Origin: an uncultured Rhodothermaceae bacterium
GTDB lineage: Bacteria > Bacteroidota > Rhodothermia > Rhodothermales > Salinibacteraceae
Direction of reading: 5' to 3'
Assembly (NCBI GenBank): GCA_913056335.1
Contig: CAJXLX010000011.1
Span: 1-47,828 of the forward strand
Length of the DNA stretch: 47,828 nt
In this document: piece by piece, positions 35,379 to 43,837 of the stretch
Layout: every line of letters starts with the position of its first letter
Numbering within the stretch: the first letter of the stretch is position 1
Notes under the pieces: generated by a model
The model's input: the letters and a program-made list of their open reading frames with translations, nothing else
The model's database searches: none
Told to the model about the DNA's origin: nothing
Position numbers and translations under genes: made by a program

Positions 35379-36443
35379 TTACGCCGGGGTGGCGGCCTGC
35401 TCGCGGACGATGACGCGCCAGTCGCTGCGCTCGGGCTGACCCGGTTTGCGCTTGCCAAACAGCCGCGCAATGATGCCGCCGTTTGTATCCAACAGTTCGA
35501 GCGAGGTCACAAGCCCGTCGCGCGTCGGCTTCTCCACGACCCATGCCTGCGCGACCGCTTCCTCGTTTAGATGCAATTGGAAGCCGGGGTCGAGCACGTT
35601 GTACCAGGGCCGCGTGGCTTTTAGCGTATGGACCGGCCCGGTGTGAATCTGAATGCAGCCGGGGCTTCCCACAAACACCATGATGGGCGTTTCGTGCTCG
35701 GCAGCAGCCTGCAGCGTGCTCCGCAAACTCGACGCAGGCACGCGGTGCGTAAACTGCCCCTCGGCCAGCCGCAGCGCCTGCGGGCGCGCCACGTCGTACT
35801 CGCGCAGCAGCGGAAAGAAGTCGTGCGTATCCTCCAGGTCGGCCCACGCCGATAGGAAGCCCTCCACATCGATCTCGGCATCGGGCGTTTCTTCGCTGGC
35901 GGATTCGGACGACTCTACGGGCTGCTCAATGGACTGGTCGTCGTGGCGATAGGTGTTCACCAGGTCGGTGTAGGCGTCGAGATTACTTTTGCGCGTCAGG
36001 AAAACCTTGTGCACAGCAGTGCCGCTTTTGTCGAAGAACTGCAGGCTCCGGCGCAGGCCATCGCGTCCGCCGCTCCACGGCATTTCAACGGCAAAGCCCA
36101 GATGCCAGTGGTCCATGAAGAGGCGCAAGTCGATGTCGTCGTTCAGCGCGATGCCCATGTTGTGACTGTCGCTAAACGACACGTCTTCGTACACGCCGGT
36201 TTTCTCGTGCACAGCCGCGTCATTGCGCGTCAGGGCCATCACCGGGCCCAGCGATTCGAGGTCGCGTAGCAGCGCCTTCCAGTCTCCATTTAGGCGTGTC
36301 ACGTGGTCGCCACATCCGGTAGCCACAAGCTCGGCCTCGCTCACGCCCAGCCGGGCAGCGGCATTGCGGATACGCACATTTGGGTGGTCGTCTTGAAACG
36401 CGTTCCAGCGCGCTTTTAGGTCGGTTGCATTCATGTTAAGCAT
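35379..36443 (-). CDS. HemS/ChuS-type heme handling protein
   Basis: Cytoplasmic protein of about 354 residues with two homologous halves, as in ChuS/HemS/HmuS proteins that receive imported heme and in some cases degrade it. Typical parts are RIRNAAARLGVSEAELVATGCG at the N-terminus, VMALTRNDAAVHEKTGVYE, a VFLTRKSNLDAYTDLV segment ending the first half, and IQIHTGPVHTLKATRPWYNVLDPGF in the second. The halves are joined by an acidic Ser/Glu linker near residues 185-205. The ATG at 36443, 10 bases after the hmuV stop, fits operon spacing; a second ATG lies three codons in. Last gene of the heme operon. Confidence 0.88.
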   Translation of the reverse strand: MLNMNATDLKARWNAFQDDHPNVRIRNAAARLGVSEAELVATGCGDHVTRLNGDWKALLRDLESLGPVMALTRNDAAVHEKTGVYEDVSFSDSHNMGIALNDDIDLRLFMDHWHLGFAVEMPWSGGRDGLRRSLQFFDKSGTAVHKVFLTRKSNLDAYTDLVNTYRHDDQSIEQPVESSESASEETPDAEIDVEGFLSAWADLEDTHDFFPLLREYDVARPQALRLAEGQFTHRVPASSLRSTLQAAAEHETPIMVFVGSPGCIQIHTGPVHTLKATRPWYNVLDPGFQLHLNEEAVAQAWVVEKPTRDGLVTSLELLDTNGGIIARLFGKRKPGQPERSDWRVIVREQAATPA

Positions 36444-36453
36444 AAAGTTAAGG

Positions 36454-37290
36454 TTAGTGGGATGCGAAGGTATGTGCCGAAGCCGCATGATCGGATTCAG
36501 CATCTGCGCTGCGCTCGGCTACGATGAGCGGGCAGCCCTGCGTGGGGTGGTCGATCACGCACACGGCACAGCCAAACACGGACTGTACGGCGGGTGGCGT
36601 GAGCACCTCAGCAGGCGCGCCGCTCTGATACACCTGTCCGTCGCGCAGCATCACAACCTGGTCGGCGTACTGAGCAGCCAGGTTCAGGTCGTGCAAGATC
36701 GCCAGCACACCGACTCCGTCATGCGCGCGCTGCGCTGCGGTGGTGAGCACGCGATGCTGGTGCGCCAGGTCGAGGCTGGCAGTGGGTTCGTCAAGCAAAA
36801 GGTAGCGATGGCCCGAGGCGGGCCGCGTCCAGATCTGCGCCAGGGCGCGCGCCAGTTGCACCCGCTGCTGCTCGCCCCCAGAGAGCGTCGGGAACGAGCG
36901 CTCGGCGAAGTCGGCGAGTCCGACTGCGGCGAGTGCAGATTCAGCAATCTGCCAGTCACGGGCGGTTTCGGCGCCGTTCAGGTGCGGGGTGCGCCCCATG
37001 AGCACCACTTGCAGGACCGGAAACGCAAACCGCAGATGCGACTGCTGGGCCAGCACCGCCCGGCGGCGCGCCACCTCGCGGTTCGAGCACGCCGCAAGCG
37101 GCTGGCCATCCATCGACACGGTACCCGTGCTGGGCGTAAGCTCGCCACTGGCTACGCGGAGCGCGGTGGTTTTGCCTGCACCGTTGGGACCCACCACTGC
37201 GGTGAGCGTACCCGGCTGCACGGTCAGGTCAACCTGGTGGATGAGCGTGGATGGGCCCATCTGTACGGTAATGTCGGATAACGAAAGCAT
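36454..37290 (-). CDS. hmuV: Heme ABC transporter ATP-binding protein
   Basis: ATPase of 278 residues that powers heme import through the inner membrane with HmuU and HmuT. Walker [11 protein letters not shown]-loop LAQQSHL, signature [15 protein letters not shown], Walker [13 protein letters not shown] and the switch His in ILHDLNLAA are all present. A GHR insertion before Walker B and an extended C-terminal tail of about 25 residues are slightly unusual. Unlike most heme loci, the gene is separated from hmuU by 360 bases packed with palindromes, so its expression may differ from hmuU. Confidence 0.93.
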
Positions 37291-37650: not shown

Positions 37651-38808
37651 TCACAGCGTGTACCCCACGCCGCGCTTGCGATCGCGCAGCAGGAGCCACA
37701 GGAAAAACGGCGCGCCCAGGAGTGCGGTTACGATGCCCAGCGGAAGCTCGGCGGGCGCCACAATGGTGCGCGACAGCAGATCTGCCCCCAGCAGCAACGC
37801 GCCGCCCAGCAGCGCCGAGCCGGGGATGAGCACGCGGTGGTCCGGGCCCACCGCCAGTCGCAGCAGGTGCGGCACCACCAGTCCCACGAACCCGATGACG
37901 CCACTCACCGCCACCGCCGCGCCCACGACGAACGCGGCCAGCGCAATCACCCGCTTCTTGATGCGCTCGGTGTCGATGCCCAGATGCATCGCCTCGCCCT
38001 CGCCCAACAGCATCGCATTCAGCGGACGCGCCATAAACGGCGCGGTGAGCACCCCGCCCAGCAGGCACGGCCCCACCACCGCCAGCTGACTCCAGGTGGC
38101 CCCGCCCAGACTGCCGAGCGTCCAAAACGTAAGGTCGCGCAGCTGGTCGTCGTCGGCCACGAAGATCATCAGTCCGGTGCCTGCCCCCGCCAGTGCGTTG
38201 ATGGCAATGCCAGCCAGTAGCATCGTCGCCACCGAGGTGCGTCCGCCGCTCGTAGCCAGCTGGTACACCACCACTGTGGCTGCTACGCCGCCCGCGAAGG
38301 CCGCAATGGGAAGCAGAAACACGCCCAGCCACGCGGCCCACGCGCCAAACACGGTCGCGCCCAGCACAATCGTAATCACAGCGGCCAGTGCGGCTCCACT
38401 CGACACGCCAATCAGGCTCGGATCGGCCAGCGGATTCCGGAACAGCCCCTGCATCACCGCACCCGCCACGGCGAGTCCGCTCCCCACGCCAATGGCCATC
38501 AGCACACGGGGCAACCGAATCGCGGTGAGCACCAACGCCTGTTGCCGCTCGAATGCCCACGGTAGCGACACACCCACGCGATCCGCCAGAATGGCAAGCA
38601 CCTGCCCCAGCGTCATCTCCACCGCGCCGATGGCCAGGCTCGCGCCGGTCGCGCCCAGCAGGAGCAGCACGAGTCCGCCCAGCACCAGACGCGCCTTCTG
38701 CTGGTGCTGCTGACGTATCAGGCCGGGTTTGGGACCGTCAGGGCTGGATGCGGTGCCTGTGTTGGCAGCGGTTGAATTCGAAGCCGGTGCGTCAGCAGTT
38801 GTGGGCAT
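37651..38808 (-). CDS. hmuU: Heme ABC transporter permease, FecCD family
   Basis: Inner-membrane permease of 385 residues with about ten hydrophobic helices (for example VLGGLVLLLLGATGASLAIG near 42-61). FecCD hallmarks are RLPRVLMAIGVGSGLAVAG, MQGLFRNPLADPSLIGVSSG, FWTLGSLGGATW and the GFVGLVVPHLLRLAVGPDHR segment that contacts the ATPase. The N-terminal 35 residues are a hydrophilic, low-complexity extension. It begins 21 bases after the hmuT stop and works with HmuT and HmuV to import heme. Confidence 0.93.
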   Translation of the reverse strand: MPTTADAPASNSTAANTGTASSPDGPKPGLIRQQHQQKARLVLGGLVLLLLGATGASLAIGAVEMTLGQVLAILADRVGVSLPWAFERQQALVLTAIRLPRVLMAIGVGSGLAVAGAVMQGLFRNPLADPSLIGVSSGAALAAVITIVLGATVFGAWAAWLGVFLLPIAAFAGGVAATVVVYQLATSGGRTSVATMLLAGIAINALAGAGTGLMIFVADDDQLRDLTFWTLGSLGGATWSQLAVVGPCLLGGVLTAPFMARPLNAMLLGEGEAMHLGIDTERIKKRVIALAAFVVGAAVAVSGVIGFVGLVVPHLLRLAVGPDHRVLIPGSALLGGALLLGADLLSRTIVAPAELPLGIVTALLGAPFFLWLLLRDRKRGVGYTL

Positions 38809-38829: not shown

Positions 38830-39717
38830 TTACTGCGCGGCAGAGGCGGAGGCTGCCTCCAGTTCGGGATGCAGTTGCTCGGTGAGCGTACGCACGGCGG
38901 TGCCCAGGCGCGGGCCGAAGCCGAGCATGAGCAGGTCGTCCATCGCCACGATGCGCCGGTTTTCGCCTGCGGGCGTCAGTTCGATGCCGGGCTGCTCCAG
39001 CACGCCTTCCACGCCGCCTACGCTGTCGAGGCCACGCGTGAGCATGAGGATCACGTCGGGCGCGGCTTCGACCACCGCTTCGGCGGTGAGCGGCTTGAAT
39101 CCGTCGATGCCGGTGAGTGCGTTCTCGGCTCCCGCCAGTTCGATCATCGCCTCGGCCGAGGTGCCCGATCCGGCTACATTCATCGTGCCGCTGCCTCGCG
39201 CGTAGATGAACAGCACGCGTGGCGTGGAATCGGCGTCTTCACGAAGCGCACGGGCGTCTTCAAGCTCGCGCTCCATGTCTGCAATGAGTTCAGCCCCCGC
39301 ATCCACGCGACCCAGAAGTTTAGCCACGCGGCGGATTTTCTGCTTTGCGCCTTCGACGGTGGGCTCGTCGGCGATTGTCTCAACGCGCACGTCGGCGCTG
39401 CGCAGTTGGTCGAGCACAGCGGGCGGACCGGTGCCTTCGAGTGCCAAGATCAGGTTCGGGTTGAGCGAGAGCACGCCCTCTGCCGAGAGCTGGCGGTAGT
39501 AGCCAACGTCGGGCTTCTCGGTGGCGGATTCGGGGTATACGCTGGAGGCGTCGACGCCTACCACGCGCTCCCCTTCACCCAGCGCGTACACGATTTCGGT
39601 GACGGAGCCGCCCAGCGGCAGGATGCGATCGGCCCCGGTGTCTTGGGCCGTAGCGGATAGCACACTGCCCAGTAAAAGCAGCGCGATGCCGAGTATGAAT
39701 AACGGGATGCGTTGCAT
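38830..39717 (-). CDS. hmuT: Periplasmic heme-binding protein
   Basis: Substrate-binding protein of 295 residues in the class III (vitamin B12/heme) fold. The signal peptide is MQRIPLFILGIALLLLGSV, with cleavage near TAQD. The mature start RILPLGGSVTEIVYALGEGERVVGVD is typical, as are YPESATEKPDVGYYRQLS and NLILALEGTGPPAVLDQLR. The Tyr of the VGYYRQ segment is a plausible heme ligand by comparison with HmuT/ShuT, but this is inference. It delivers heme to HmuUV. Placed between the HmuY-like gene and hmuU. Confidence 0.9.
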   Translation of the reverse strand: MQRIPLFILGIALLLLGSVLSATAQDTGADRILPLGGSVTEIVYALGEGERVVGVDASSVYPESATEKPDVGYYRQLSAEGVLSLNPNLILALEGTGPPAVLDQLRSADVRVETIADEPTVEGAKQKIRRVAKLLGRVDAGAELIADMERELEDARALREDADSTPRVLFIYARGSGTMNVAGSGTSAEAMIELAGAENALTGIDGFKPLTAEAVVEAAPDVILMLTRGLDSVGGVEGVLEQPGIELTPAGENRRIVAMDDLLMLGFGPRLGTAVRTLTEQLHPELEAASASAAQ

Positions 39718-39843: not shown

Positions 39844-40515
39844 TCACTCAAACGACGTCGACCCGTCGGTTTGCACCACGTAGTCGAAGGTGTAGTAGCG
39901 CGATGGGTGCGCCTCGCGATCGGCGGGCAGTTCCGGGGCGCCCTGGTAGTAGCTCTGGACGCGGATTTTGGCGTAGCCCTCGCCGTCGGCGGTGCGCACA
40001 ACAATCGTACGTCCAGGAACGGGGCGGACGTAATTCTGGCCGTTGCTGTTGTAGCTGTACCATCCGTTGCCCGAGCCGGTGGGAATGGCGAGGGCCTCTT
40101 CGGTGTCGGGCTGCAAGCGTTCTGTGTCTACCTCAACAACATCTCCGAAGGCGGCTTCGGCCACGTACGCCGCGCCGTTGCCCGGACCGCTCGTGCCGCC
40201 GTTGATGCGAATCGTGGTGCCTTGCAGCGCAATGTCCCACGCGGTCGAGTTGGAGTCGGCACGCGCCTCGGTGCCCGATTCGAGCACAATCTCATTATCA
40301 CGCAGGCTAAAGAACGTGTACTGGTTCAGGCCCTGCGGACGCCCGTTCTCGCCGACGGTAACGGTGGGATCAGCCGGCAGGTCTTCAACGGTTTGCACCT
40401 CCAGTTCTACCGTTTCTTCGGGTCCAATCGGGGTGCTGTCGTCATCGCAGGCGCTGAGCGTAATCAGCAGCGCTGCGGAAAGCAAGAGCGTGGTAAGTTG
40501 TGTGATCGTACGCAT
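39844..40515 (-). CDS. HmuY family heme-binding lipoprotein
   Basis: Lipoprotein of 223 residues: signal with LITLSAC (Cys23), acidic linker, then an all-beta domain of the HmuY family. Matching segments are NQYTFFSLRDNEIV, STAWDIALQGTTIRINGG, NGWYSYNSNGQNYVRPVPGRTIVVRT, and the end KIRVQSYYQGAPEL ... YYTFDYVVQ. HmuY of Porphyromonas takes heme from host proteins and passes it to the TonB receptor HmuR; here the gene directly follows the receptor gene. Heme ligands cannot be fixed from sequence alone, since family members use His, Met or Tyr. Outer-membrane location likely. Confidence 0.87.
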   Translation of the reverse strand: MRTITQLTTLLLSAALLITLSACDDDSTPIGPEETVELEVQTVEDLPADPTVTVGENGRPQGLNQYTFFSLRDNEIVLESGTEARADSNSTAWDIALQGTTIRINGGTSGPGNGAAYVAEAAFGDVVEVDTERLQPDTEEALAIPTGSGNGWYSYNSNGQNYVRPVPGRTIVVRTADGEGYAKIRVQSYYQGAPELPADREAHPSRYYTFDYVVQTDGSTSFE

Positions 40516-40573: not shown

Positions 40574-42694
40574 CTATAACGCAGCGCGCAGTCCCACGAA
40601 CCAGGTGCGCCCAGAGAACTCGGGCGTGTACTGGGCATCGGTATAGTCAGTCAGGTTATTCGCGCCGACCTGGAGGTCGACCGTGTCGGCGAGTGTTTGG
40701 GTGAGCGTGAGATCGAGTATGGCATGGCTCGGAGCGTACTCGGCGTCGGTATCTACAATGCCGTTGCCGTTCACATCCGAGAAGCCGTAGCGGCTGCGGT
40801 AGCGTCCACGTACCGAGGCCGTGAAGCCTGCAGATTCAGCCCGCGCCATAAAACGAACGGTGGCCCGATGCCGCGACCGGCCTCGCAATCCGGCATAGTC
40901 GCTGACCGGCACCGCTACATCGCGCCCGGCGTCCGTCCGCCGAAAGATGCGCCCGGCCTCCAGTTGGTCGAGCACGGCGCGGTCTTTGGCTTTGAGATAG
41001 GTGTAGCTGACGGCGGCGTCGAGCGCCGGGTGTGGCTGCCACGACAGTTCGGCTTCAAGGCCCTGCGTAAAGACGCGTCCGCGATTGAAGTAGGTAAAGA
41101 CTTGCTGACCGTTCGTCTTGCGCGCTACCGGCTGCGTGTCGATGAGATCGCGCACTTCGTTGTGATAGAGATTGGCATCGAGCGTGAGCGCGGCAGGCAG
41201 GTCCACCCGCACCCCGACGTTGTAGGAAACCGAGCGCTCCGCATCCATCGCGCCGCCCAGCGTAGATGGATCCTGCAGGAGGGCGGCGATTTCGTTGTTC
41301 GCATCCAGACTGTCGAGTCCGCCGCGCACCTCTTCGGCGCCAAACACGCTGTATCCGGCCTGCGCATTGGTGAAGTTGAGGTACAACTGCCGGAAGGCGG
41401 GGGCTTTGTATCCGCTCCCCACCGAGGCCCGCACCCGCAGTCCGTTTAGCGGACGCACGAGCGCGGCCAGCTTTGGACTGATACGCGTGGCGTAATCGCT
41501 GTGGGCATCCAGGCGCGCACTTGGCACCAGATCAAGCCAGTCTGCGGGTGTCCATTCGTCTTGCACGAAGACAAACCCGCCGGTGCGGTGGCCGGTCACG
41601 CGGTCGGCATCGACCGATTCGCGGATGTACCCAGCGCCCACGGTGGCCAGATGCGTATCCCCCCACGCGGTCTGAAGCTGCGCCTCGCCCTTGCGATAGC
41701 GCTGGTTGAAGCGCGAATTGTTGAGACGAAGCCCGTCATTCTGACCCACAAGGCGTATTTCCGTGCGGTAGCCCGAAGCCACTGCGCTAAGCTCCAGCGT
41801 GGTGCCCGGACGCAGCGTGTGGGTGAGGGTTGGCGCAAGGCTCCAGTCGGTCTGCTCTCCAGTGCTATCGAAGCGCTGCGTGTCGTTGCCTTGCATCTGG
41901 GTGATGCGCGACTGATCTTCGCGGGCCAAGCGACCGCGCACCTCCAGATCGGTGTCGGTGCTGAGCGCGTATCCGAGCGTGCTGCGCGCCACATAGTTCG
42001 TAAACGATGGCGTTGTGGGCGTAGCGCTGGATGTGAGGGTATAGCCATCCGAAGCGTAGCGGCTCACAAACGCCTTGCCCCGCCATGCACCCTCGGCCCC
42101 GGCCACCCGCACCGATGCATCCGACGTGTTGTGCGTGCCGTACTGAGCACGCACCTCTCCTTGAAGGCCATCTTCCGGGTCCTGCGTAATGACATTCACC
42201 ACACCCGCCAGCGCCTCGCTCCCGTAGAGCGACGACGACGGTCCGCGCACCACCTCCACCTGCTGCACATCGGCCACCGTAATGCGATCCAGGCTCAGCG
42301 TGCCCGCCGTGCGCCCAATCACCGGCTCGCCATCAATCAGGATGAGCGTGTAGTCGGCATCGAAGCCCTGCACCTGCACGCCCGCGCCGTGGTCATAATT
42401 CAGCTGGATGCCCGGCTGCTCGGCCAGAAGATCGGACAAGCGGCGCACCCCACGGGCTTCAATCTCGCCCGCATCAATCACACTCGTCGGCACAGGCACC
42501 TGCCCCAGCCGCTTCTGACTGCGCGTGGCCGTCACCACCACGCGCTCCAGTTCCACCGGCGTGCCCCAGGCCGTGGTGTCGGCGCGCGATGTATCGGGCG
42601 ATACGTCGGAAACCGACTGCGCATGCGCGCCGCTTGCACACAGCGCAGCCATTGCCAATCCTGAGATTACCAGCGTCCAGCGGGTGTCTCGCAT
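40574..42694 (-). CDS. hmuR: TonB-dependent heme receptor, HmuR-like
   Basis: Outer-membrane receptor of 706 residues: signal peptide ending SGAHAQ (near 26), a TonB box region with VVVTATRSQKRLGQVP, a plug domain (LSDLLAEQPGIQLN, ILIDGEPVIGR, VVRGPSSSLYGSEALAGVVNVIT), and a 22-strand barrel ending FVGLRAAL. ATG 42694 places the signal peptide correctly. As first gene of the heme operon, next to the HmuY-like lipoprotein, heme is the most likely substrate, but the exact ligand cannot be proved from sequence. An iron-type operator palindrome lies 12-32 bases before the start. Confidence 0.9.
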   Translation of the reverse strand: MRDTRWTLVISGLAMAALCASGAHAQSVSDVSPDTSRADTTAWGTPVELERVVVTATRSQKRLGQVPVPTSVIDAGEIEARGVRRLSDLLAEQPGIQLNYDHGAGVQVQGFDADYTLILIDGEPVIGRTAGTLSLDRITVADVQQVEVVRGPSSSLYGSEALAGVVNVITQDPEDGLQGEVRAQYGTHNTSDASVRVAGAEGAWRGKAFVSRYASDGYTLTSSATPTTPSFTNYVARSTLGYALSTDTDLEVRGRLAREDQSRITQMQGNDTQRFDSTGEQTDWSLAPTLTHTLRPGTTLELSAVASGYRTEIRLVGQNDGLRLNNSRFNQRYRKGEAQLQTAWGDTHLATVGAGYIRESVDADRVTGHRTGGFVFVQDEWTPADWLDLVPSARLDAHSDYATRISPKLAALVRPLNGLRVRASVGSGYKAPAFRQLYLNFTNAQAGYSVFGAEEVRGGLDSLDANNEIAALLQDPSTLGGAMDAERSVSYNVGVRVDLPAALTLDANLYHNEVRDLIDTQPVARKTNGQQVFTYFNRGRVFTQGLEAELSWQPHPALDAAVSYTYLKAKDRAVLDQLEAGRIFRRTDAGRDVAVPVSDYAGLRGRSRHRATVRFMARAESAGFTASVRGRYRSRYGFSDVNGNGIVDTDAEYAPSHAILDLTLTQTLADTVDLQVGANNLTDYTDAQYTPEFSGRTWFVGLRAAL

Positions 42695-42705
42695 CTCACT
42701 ATTCT

Positions 42706-42726
42706 TATTTAGACCGTTTCTAAATA
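42706..42726 (-). promoter_or_regulatory. Iron-responsive-type operator, receptor gene
   Basis: Perfect palindrome TATTTAGA-ccgtt-TCTAAATA just upstream of the receptor ATG, overlapping the likely promoter/leader. A second small palindrome ATAGC-aata-GCTAT adjoins it (42724-42737). The arms resemble the TTTAGAA-N3-TTCTAAA box bound by the Fur-family regulator Irr; which regulator acts here is unknown. Confidence 0.6.
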
Positions 42727-42891
42727 GCAATAGCTATGGTAGCGGATGTGCGGCTCTGATGCAAGGAGCGAGGTGCGACTCAACTCACAAGATTGCGTGA
42801 ATGATGCCGTTTGTCAGAGCCCTTGGAGACGGAGAGCCGTCGTTGTACACCGCTTGGTGGCGCTGCCTCGGCAGAGACTGAAAATAGAGGT

Positions 42892-43028
42892 GCGGTTCAA
42901 TGCTAAGTGATAGAAGGAATGGATCTGTAGCCGGAGACTGGAAGCGTCTCCGGCACGGACGTATCCGGCGGAGGCAAACGGAGGACCGTTCGCCTCCGCA
43001 GAAGTTTTATCACGAGAGCTATCACTTA
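42892..43028 (+). repeat. Long intergenic repeat B, containing REP-like palindrome copy 4
   Basis: Its first 54 bases match repeat A (37526 onward). The REP-like unit is GTAG at 42927, then GCCGGAGAC-tggaagc-GTCTCCGGC (42930-42954). A second long hairpin follows at 42968-42999 (GCGGAGGC/GCCTCCGC outside, AACGG/CCGTT inside). An outer perfect stem TAAGTGATAG (42904-42913) / CTATCACTTA (43019-43028) encloses both, giving a folded multibranch unit. Confidence 0.75.
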
Positions 43029-43043
43029 ACGTCTATCTACTAC

Positions 43044-43090
43044 CAAAATAAAACGTCCAGGCAACCCGTGTAAAGGCTCACCTGGACGTT
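43044..43090 (-). terminator. Terminator of the P19-like gene
   Basis: Perfect stem AACGTCCAGG (43052-43061) / CCTGGACGTT (43081-43090), 19-base loop, followed on the minus strand by TTTATTTT. It separates the P19-like gene from the receptor operon. Confidence 0.8.
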
Positions 43091-43138
43091 ATTTGTCACC
43101 TCCTATCCGCATGTCGATTTCGAATCCTCAATCTTACA

Positions 43139-43714
43139 CTACCGCCGCGTAGCCGCTGCAATCTCCTCGAAGTCAAGCCCCTCGAAGGTGAACGACTGCG
43201 CCTCAAAGAGCGGCGTGCCGTGCGCATCGCGCCAGCTTTTGTGGAACGCCAGCTCGGTCTCCTGGGGCGGATGCACGTCGAACGTAACCGTGTATGCGTC
43301 GGTGGGTGAACCAGGGAGCGACACGTTACGGGCGTAGTGCATCGCATCGCCGAGCGTGACGTGCGGAATAAGCGAGACGGTTTCGGTATCGCCCGTGGAC
43401 TCGTTGGTGATGGTCGCGAAGAAGTGGAGATACGCGACGAATCCGCCCCGCGTTGTGCCCTCGGGGATGTCTATGCTCTCGTCGGTTGCCCAGGTGGTGA
43501 GCACCTCCAGGTGCACATCGGTTTTGTCTTCAGCCAGGTTCTGGTCGTGCGGCGTTACGTCGTCTTTCGGTGCGCCCTCAAACACAAGCTGAATGCCGGG
43601 CTCGATGACCTCTTCGCCGATGATCATCTCCTGGGCCTGTACAGGAACGCTCATGAGCATGATAAGCACGAGGGATGCGCAGAGTGTTTGCACAGCAGTA
43701 GGCAGATGTCTCAT
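43139..43714 (-). CDS. P19/Tp34-type periplasmic iron-binding protein
   Basis: Protein of 191 residues with a signal peptide (LVLIMLMSVPVQAQ, cut near 28). The mature sequence follows the Tp34/P19 iron transport family: MIIGEEVIEPGIQLVF, then DVHLEVLTTWATDE, a GGFVAYLHFFATITNEST strand pair, and LGDAMHYARNVSLPG. Candidate metal ligands by analogy with Campylobacter P19 are His68, His118 or Met125, His126 and His158. Family members bind copper/iron and assist iron uptake, usually with an FTR1 permease, which is absent here. Transcribed alone with its own terminator and an iron-type operator 52 bases upstream. Confidence 0.72.
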   Translation of the reverse strand: MRHLPTAVQTLCASLVLIMLMSVPVQAQEMIIGEEVIEPGIQLVFEGAPKDDVTPHDQNLAEDKTDVHLEVLTTWATDESIDIPEGTTRGGFVAYLHFFATITNESTGDTETVSLIPHVTLGDAMHYARNVSLPGSPTDAYTVTFDVHPPQETELAFHKSWRDAHGTPLFEAQSFTFEGLDFEEIAAATRR

Positions 43715-43765
43715 AGGTCAGGTACGGATCGAGTGATAGCAGACAAATTCAGGAGCGACTACAGT

Positions 43766-43786
43766 TGTTTAGACAAGGTATAAATA
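43766..43786 (-). promoter_or_regulatory. Iron-responsive-type operator, P19-like gene
   Basis: TGTTTAGA-caagg-TATAAATA matches the receptor operator at 14 of 16 arm positions with the same 5-base spacer. It lies 52-72 bases upstream of the P19-like start, where a promoter would be expected. Confidence 0.5.
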
Positions 43787-43837
43787 GACAGGATGCACCG
43801 ATCGATGCAAGCGCATGCGTACAGCTTCCGCAGGTCT

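Follow-up and report, generated by a model that had tools for sequence, protein, structure and literature searches.

The locus considered here lies in a stretch of 47,828 nucleotides (the window) from an uncultured Rhodothermaceae bacterium of the order Rhodothermales, and it raises the question of whether two similar palindromes, one ahead of a heme-type receptor gene and the other ahead of a gene for a P19-like iron protein, are read by a common regulator and, if so, by which one. The receptor-side element (42706-42726; TATTTAGACCGTTTCTAAATA in full) consists of two perfect 8-bp arms around a five-nucleotide spacer, TATTTAGA-CCGTT-TCTAAATA, and ends 11 nt from the receptor ATG (42694). The P19-side element (43766-43786; TGTTTAGACAAGGTATAAATA in full) reads TGTTTAGA-CAAGG-TATAAATA, is incompletely symmetrical and stands about 50 nt from the P19 ATG (43714). 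The pattern ATTTAGA-N5-TCTAAAT is thus exact at the first position, and the second differs from it at two of 16 arm positions. A first-pass annotation had placed the two elements at these positions, with equal N5 spacers and agreement at 14 of 16 arm positions, and had seen the motif nowhere else in the window; the window sequence bears this out, as a search at up to three mismatches returned the two element sites only, against a mean of 0.03 in 100 dinucleotide shuffles.

The minus-strand run that begins with the receptor is a heme-uptake set, comprising a TonB-dependent receptor of heme type (HmuR-like; 40574..42694, Pfam Plug and barrel domains, with HmuY next to it), an HmuY-like heme-binding protein (39844..40515; PF14064, E 1.2e-10), the periplasmic binding protein of an ABC importer (38830..39717; PF01497), a FecCD-type permease (37651..38808; PF01032), the ABC ATPase of the heme importer (36454..37290; PF00005) and a HemS/ChuX-type heme-handling protein (35379..36503; PF05171 in two stretches). 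Against NCBIfam, heme families rank top for the receptor, yet they score below cut-off. The P19-like periplasmic iron protein (43139..43714; PF10634, E 2.4e-27) is encoded on the same strand, upstream of the receptor, and its solved P19-type relatives are periplasmic proteins, probably of high-affinity Fe2+ transport. A terminator-like hairpin with a T-rich tail follows the P19 gene on the minus strand (43049..43090); it is absent from the output of a strict terminator scan, and its assignment is based on a 10-bp perfect inverted repeat with its T-rich tail (43052-43090) and a fold z-score of -2.6. Such a terminator would divide the P19 gene from the receptor unit and account for the presence of an operator at each. 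The gap from this terminator to the receptor promoter is occupied by one copy (42892-43045) of a dispersed, MITE- or REP-like repeat, about 155 bp long and containing nested inverted repeats. BLAST matched it 44 times across the genome (73-100% identity), and in the aligned copies conservation extends to further bases on both flanks.

The position of each element relative to its promoter is informative as to the likely mode of control. A strict sigma-70 scan did not detect the receptor promoter, which is instead assigned from orthologue conservation: a -35-like TTGCAT (42759..42764) and a -10-like TACCAT (42736..42741), both on the minus strand, form a TTGnnn-N17-TAnnnT arrangement just upstream of the operator that recurs in 11 of the 11 receptor orthologues examined in the family, where 0.09 would be expected. 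The operator starts 9 nt past the -10-like element, and so it should cover the receptor transcription start. A receptor-like arrangement of promoter and operator is found at six of eight P19 orthologues; in the window itself the strict TTGnnn-N17-TAnnnT pattern is not present, and a tentative minus-strand promoter consists of a -35-like TTGCAT (43805..43810), common to Longimonas halophila (the nearest named relative, itself of the Rhodothermales), and a -10-like TATTTA (43781..43786) at an 18-bp spacing. By comparison with L. halophila, the P19 -10 may lie within the operator in both organisms. Both operator positions would suit a repressor.

If the palindrome is the operator of a regulon, it should be found elsewhere in the genome, and we scanned the available assembly (3.26 Mb, 86% complete) with the core TTTAGA-N5-TCTAAA. 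There are three exact sites and seven at up to one mismatch, with one in the reversed-letter control. At two mismatches the scan returned 24 sites and the control 22, and since this is no excess, only near-perfect sites were used and the predicted regulon was not widened with two-mismatch matches. The distribution of these near-perfect sites is non-random, and their targets are known or likely iron genes; the earlier proposal of an iron-linked operator shared by the receptor and the P19 gene is upheld. One site (C2:52367) stands about 34 nt 5′ of a solute-binding protein of iron-ABC type, followed by a permease and an ATPase, a transporter whose substrate is presumably iron, to judge from its class and context. 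Another (C23:18365) lies 5′ of a DUF4856-imelysin-HTTM operon, two (C1:36551 and 36663) fall in the interval separating a pair of small genes of no assigned function, and one (C55:2720) lies 5′ of a small gene adjoining a TonB receptor. The region of the fur gene holds no site within two mismatches and thus gives no sign of autoregulation.

Several of these small genes merit description in their own right. The twin Fur-type sites on C1 (G000:C1 36551-36679; L108 3225-3996) separate divergent genes encoding proteins of 99 aa and of about 70 aa, the latter with several Cys; sites and small genes are kept together in L. halophila and in G054, and a relative found in G047 also has a site. These two genes are candidate iron genes. 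The site on C55 (G000:C55 2720; L110, and L007 1558-1905) is of TTTGGA type and is followed by a protein of about 115 aa, and small proteins resembling this one follow sites in G052, G054 and G061. A Pfam search found no family for the 99-aa C1 gene or for the C55 gene. In G052 and G054 (L045 and L114), a gene judged by eye to resemble 2-oxoglutarate:ferredoxin oxidoreductase comes immediately after a Fur-type site, which suggests iron control of an iron-sulfur enzyme.

Conservation across relatives provides evidence of a different kind. In L. halophila, the receptor site has identical arms and a changed spacer, and the P19 site is kept with arm changes (TATTTGTA-N5-TCTAAATA). Of the 114 genomes in the order, 88 have exact sites and few contain the reversed control. 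When receptor orthologues were chosen by protein alone, blind to the motif, 24 could be anchored, of which 20 have a site within two mismatches upstream and 14 an exact one, with a p value against shuffles of zero or close to it; most of the sites stand 5 to 30 nt ahead of the start. The P19 orthologues are more divided, with 13 of 22 having a site within two mismatches and nine having no close site. Both window elements are annotated as Fur-type operators (with no strand assigned) on their sequence, the shuffles, the genome scan, the comparison with L. halophila and orthologue conservation. Phylum-wide counts of the exact pattern showed enrichment in the order and the class and were noisy in AT-rich families, for which reason a spacing-controlled test of receptors was used instead. 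A set of 79 receptors drawn from the wider group, among them those of Hymenobacter, Spirosoma and flavobacteria, gave 25 with an N5 site at up to one mismatch (for example TATTTAGAATTATTCTAAATA in Hymenobacter); the reversed control gave none, and spacings other than N5 in the range N2 to N9 gave 0 to 4. One family of the order (f12) has no exact sites, and two of its four receptors examined have no close site; a TTTGGA-N5-TCTAAA variant precedes its iron-type ABC genes (L209, L219 and other loci), so that the system there seems to have drifted rather than gone.

As to the regulator, Fur (PF01475) is found in 107 of the 114 genomes of the order and in 77 of the 77 good ones, and the window genome encodes a single Fur-family protein (109 bits on PF01475). 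Against curated models this protein scores best on Fur (94 bits), and since it reaches the cut-off of neither Fur nor Irr, its assignment as Fur also draws on alignment with solved relatives. The closest of these are Fur proteins, and the protein retains the HDH motif, the Glu just before it, the helix His and the two Cys pairs. The main competitor by content of the genome is the one DtxR-family protein, which carries a FeoA domain. A DtxR/MntR-family repressor sensing iron or manganese could in principle bind the element, because DtxR proteins also bind AT-rich palindromes, and MntR/DtxR operators likewise mediate metal-dependent repression of uptake genes; in one relative (G057), moreover, the DtxR gene has a site less than 1 kb away on its contig. 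However, the best curated match of the window genome's protein is MntR, and its gene stands 5′ of a Mn/Zn ABC importer; no site within two mismatches occurs in the 11-kb region that contains them, unlike the link between gene and operator that would be expected of MntR/DtxR. Furthermore, DtxR is undetected in G072 (94% complete) and G074 (98%, three contigs), which keep the receptor site, and in G095 (99% complete), which keeps two exact sites. We therefore regard control by a DtxR/MntR-type repressor as improbable.

The first-pass annotation had called the element Irr-type, and the half-site TTTAGA is indeed common to the two, with the receptor site matching TTTAGAA-N3-TTCTAAA at one mismatch. 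Yet the P19 site has no such match within two mismatches, the window sites do not retain the inner A..T of that consensus, and the sole Fur-family protein found, at 35.6 bits on an Irr model whose cut-off is 170, is Fur and not Irr; it retains the metal ligands of Fur as well as the two Cys pairs. Irr also acts as a repressor when iron is depleted (PMC3413700), which is the opposite sense of control and the wrong one for uptake genes, so that binding by an Irr-type regulator is extremely unlikely and the label does not stand. A regulator from some family other than Fur, DtxR or Rrf2 is likewise very unlikely: the genome is 86% complete, so that a second regulator might be missing, and the assignment of Fur is based on sequence, points that count against the Fur reading in general, but in another bacterium of the group this element has been tested and is a Fur box. 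RirA/Rrf2 control was rejected, as no Rrf2-family protein was found in the window genome by a search that was positive in 13 of 14 control genomes. The classical E. coli Fur box was also rejected, since GATAATGATAATCATTATC has no match in the window within three mismatches, in agreement with the annotation, which had noted the unlikeness. Lastly, the palindrome might be a chance similarity or might act as an RNA hairpin, which at 11 nt 5′ of the receptor start codon could block translation. This can hardly be credited, given the 0.03 matches expected in the window and the outcome of the conservation tests, in which the arms are kept while the spacer diverges, before many different iron genes and at widely varying distances from the start.

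The case for Fur draws on a comparison with Riemerella anatipestifer, whose Fur box was predicted as ATTTAGAATTATTCTAAAT and precedes hmuR; in EMSA, purified Fur bound promoter fragments including that of hmuR, and the fur deletion was analysed by RNA-seq (PMC5609570). A second box, at rhuB (ATTTAGAATTATCCTAAAT), showed Fe2+-dependent Fur binding (PMC10986502), and metal-dependent binding of Fur at such boxes, with repression that depends on iron, is known only for this organism (PMC5609570, PMC10986502). It should be mentioned that the abstract of PMC5609570 prints the E. coli consensus, whereas its table and text give the TTTAGA form ATTTAGAATTATTCTAAAT, and that PMC7976709, which appeared afterwards, prints the E. 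coli form again. The window sites have the same arms, the same N5 spacing and the same location at an hmuR-type heme gene as the R. anatipestifer box, and the table of regulated genes in that organism includes imelysin and gamma-carboxylase (HTTM-type) genes, resembling the DUF4856-imelysin-HTTM operon found here. There are also differences, in that the window spacers (CCGTT and CAAGG) are GC-richer, the distance to the receptor ATG is 11 nt here and 78 nt in R. anatipestifer, and the window sites are predicted ones. A search of the available literature found no Fur-box work on the Rhodothermales. The element had been described as unusual for this lineage, a view that does not hold given the R. 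anatipestifer box and the frequency of the motif before heme receptors across the group. The E. coli Fur box GATAATGATAATCATTATC is likewise a 19-bp palindrome with an odd central base, read by a Fur of the same family, but its half-site is GATAAT and not TTTAGA. In Magnetospirillum Fur, Arg57 contacts guanine in the major groove (PMC4506495), whereas the protein here has Asn at that position; the equivalent segment is ATVYN in all Fur proteins of the order that were aligned and ATVYR in E. coli Fur. This Asn could be the cause of the different box.

The analysis determined the sites, the genes that they target in the genome, how far they are conserved, the promoter geometry (from conservation) and the regulator inventory, whereas the identity of the binder and the direction of control are transferred from R. 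anatipestifer. On this footing we infer that the two elements are, with high probability, operators at which the single Fur of this genome, in its Fe2+-bound form, acts over two separate promoters. When iron is sufficient, Fe2+-Fur dimers would bind ATTTAGA-N5-TCTAAAT, covering the expected transcription start of the hmuR-hmuY-ABC importer-hemS operon and, at the P19-like gene with its own terminator, the likely -10 region, and RNA polymerase would be blocked at both. When iron is depleted, Fur would be released, and the P19 iron pathway would be switched on together with heme uptake.

The mechanism is an ordinary one; what is new is its membership in this lineage, and the element looks odd only relative to the E. 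coli box, as the broad bacterial group to which it belongs probably uses a Fur site of its own. A more ambitious idea, which we put forward tentatively and think somewhat less likely than its opposite, is that a group-wide Fur with Asn for Arg57 has shifted to an Irr-like TTTAGA half-site, such that one change in the recognition helix separates two classes of box, and that the two small Cys-containing genes at the twin boxes are unrecognised parts of iron homeostasis. The analysis offers a concrete predicted iron regulon for the halophilic Salinibacter/Longimonas lineage, with new members named, and it indicates that a much wider group probably works with the non-classical Fur box that was described from a single duck pathogen; scans with the E. 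coli box would miss this TTTAGA-type box.
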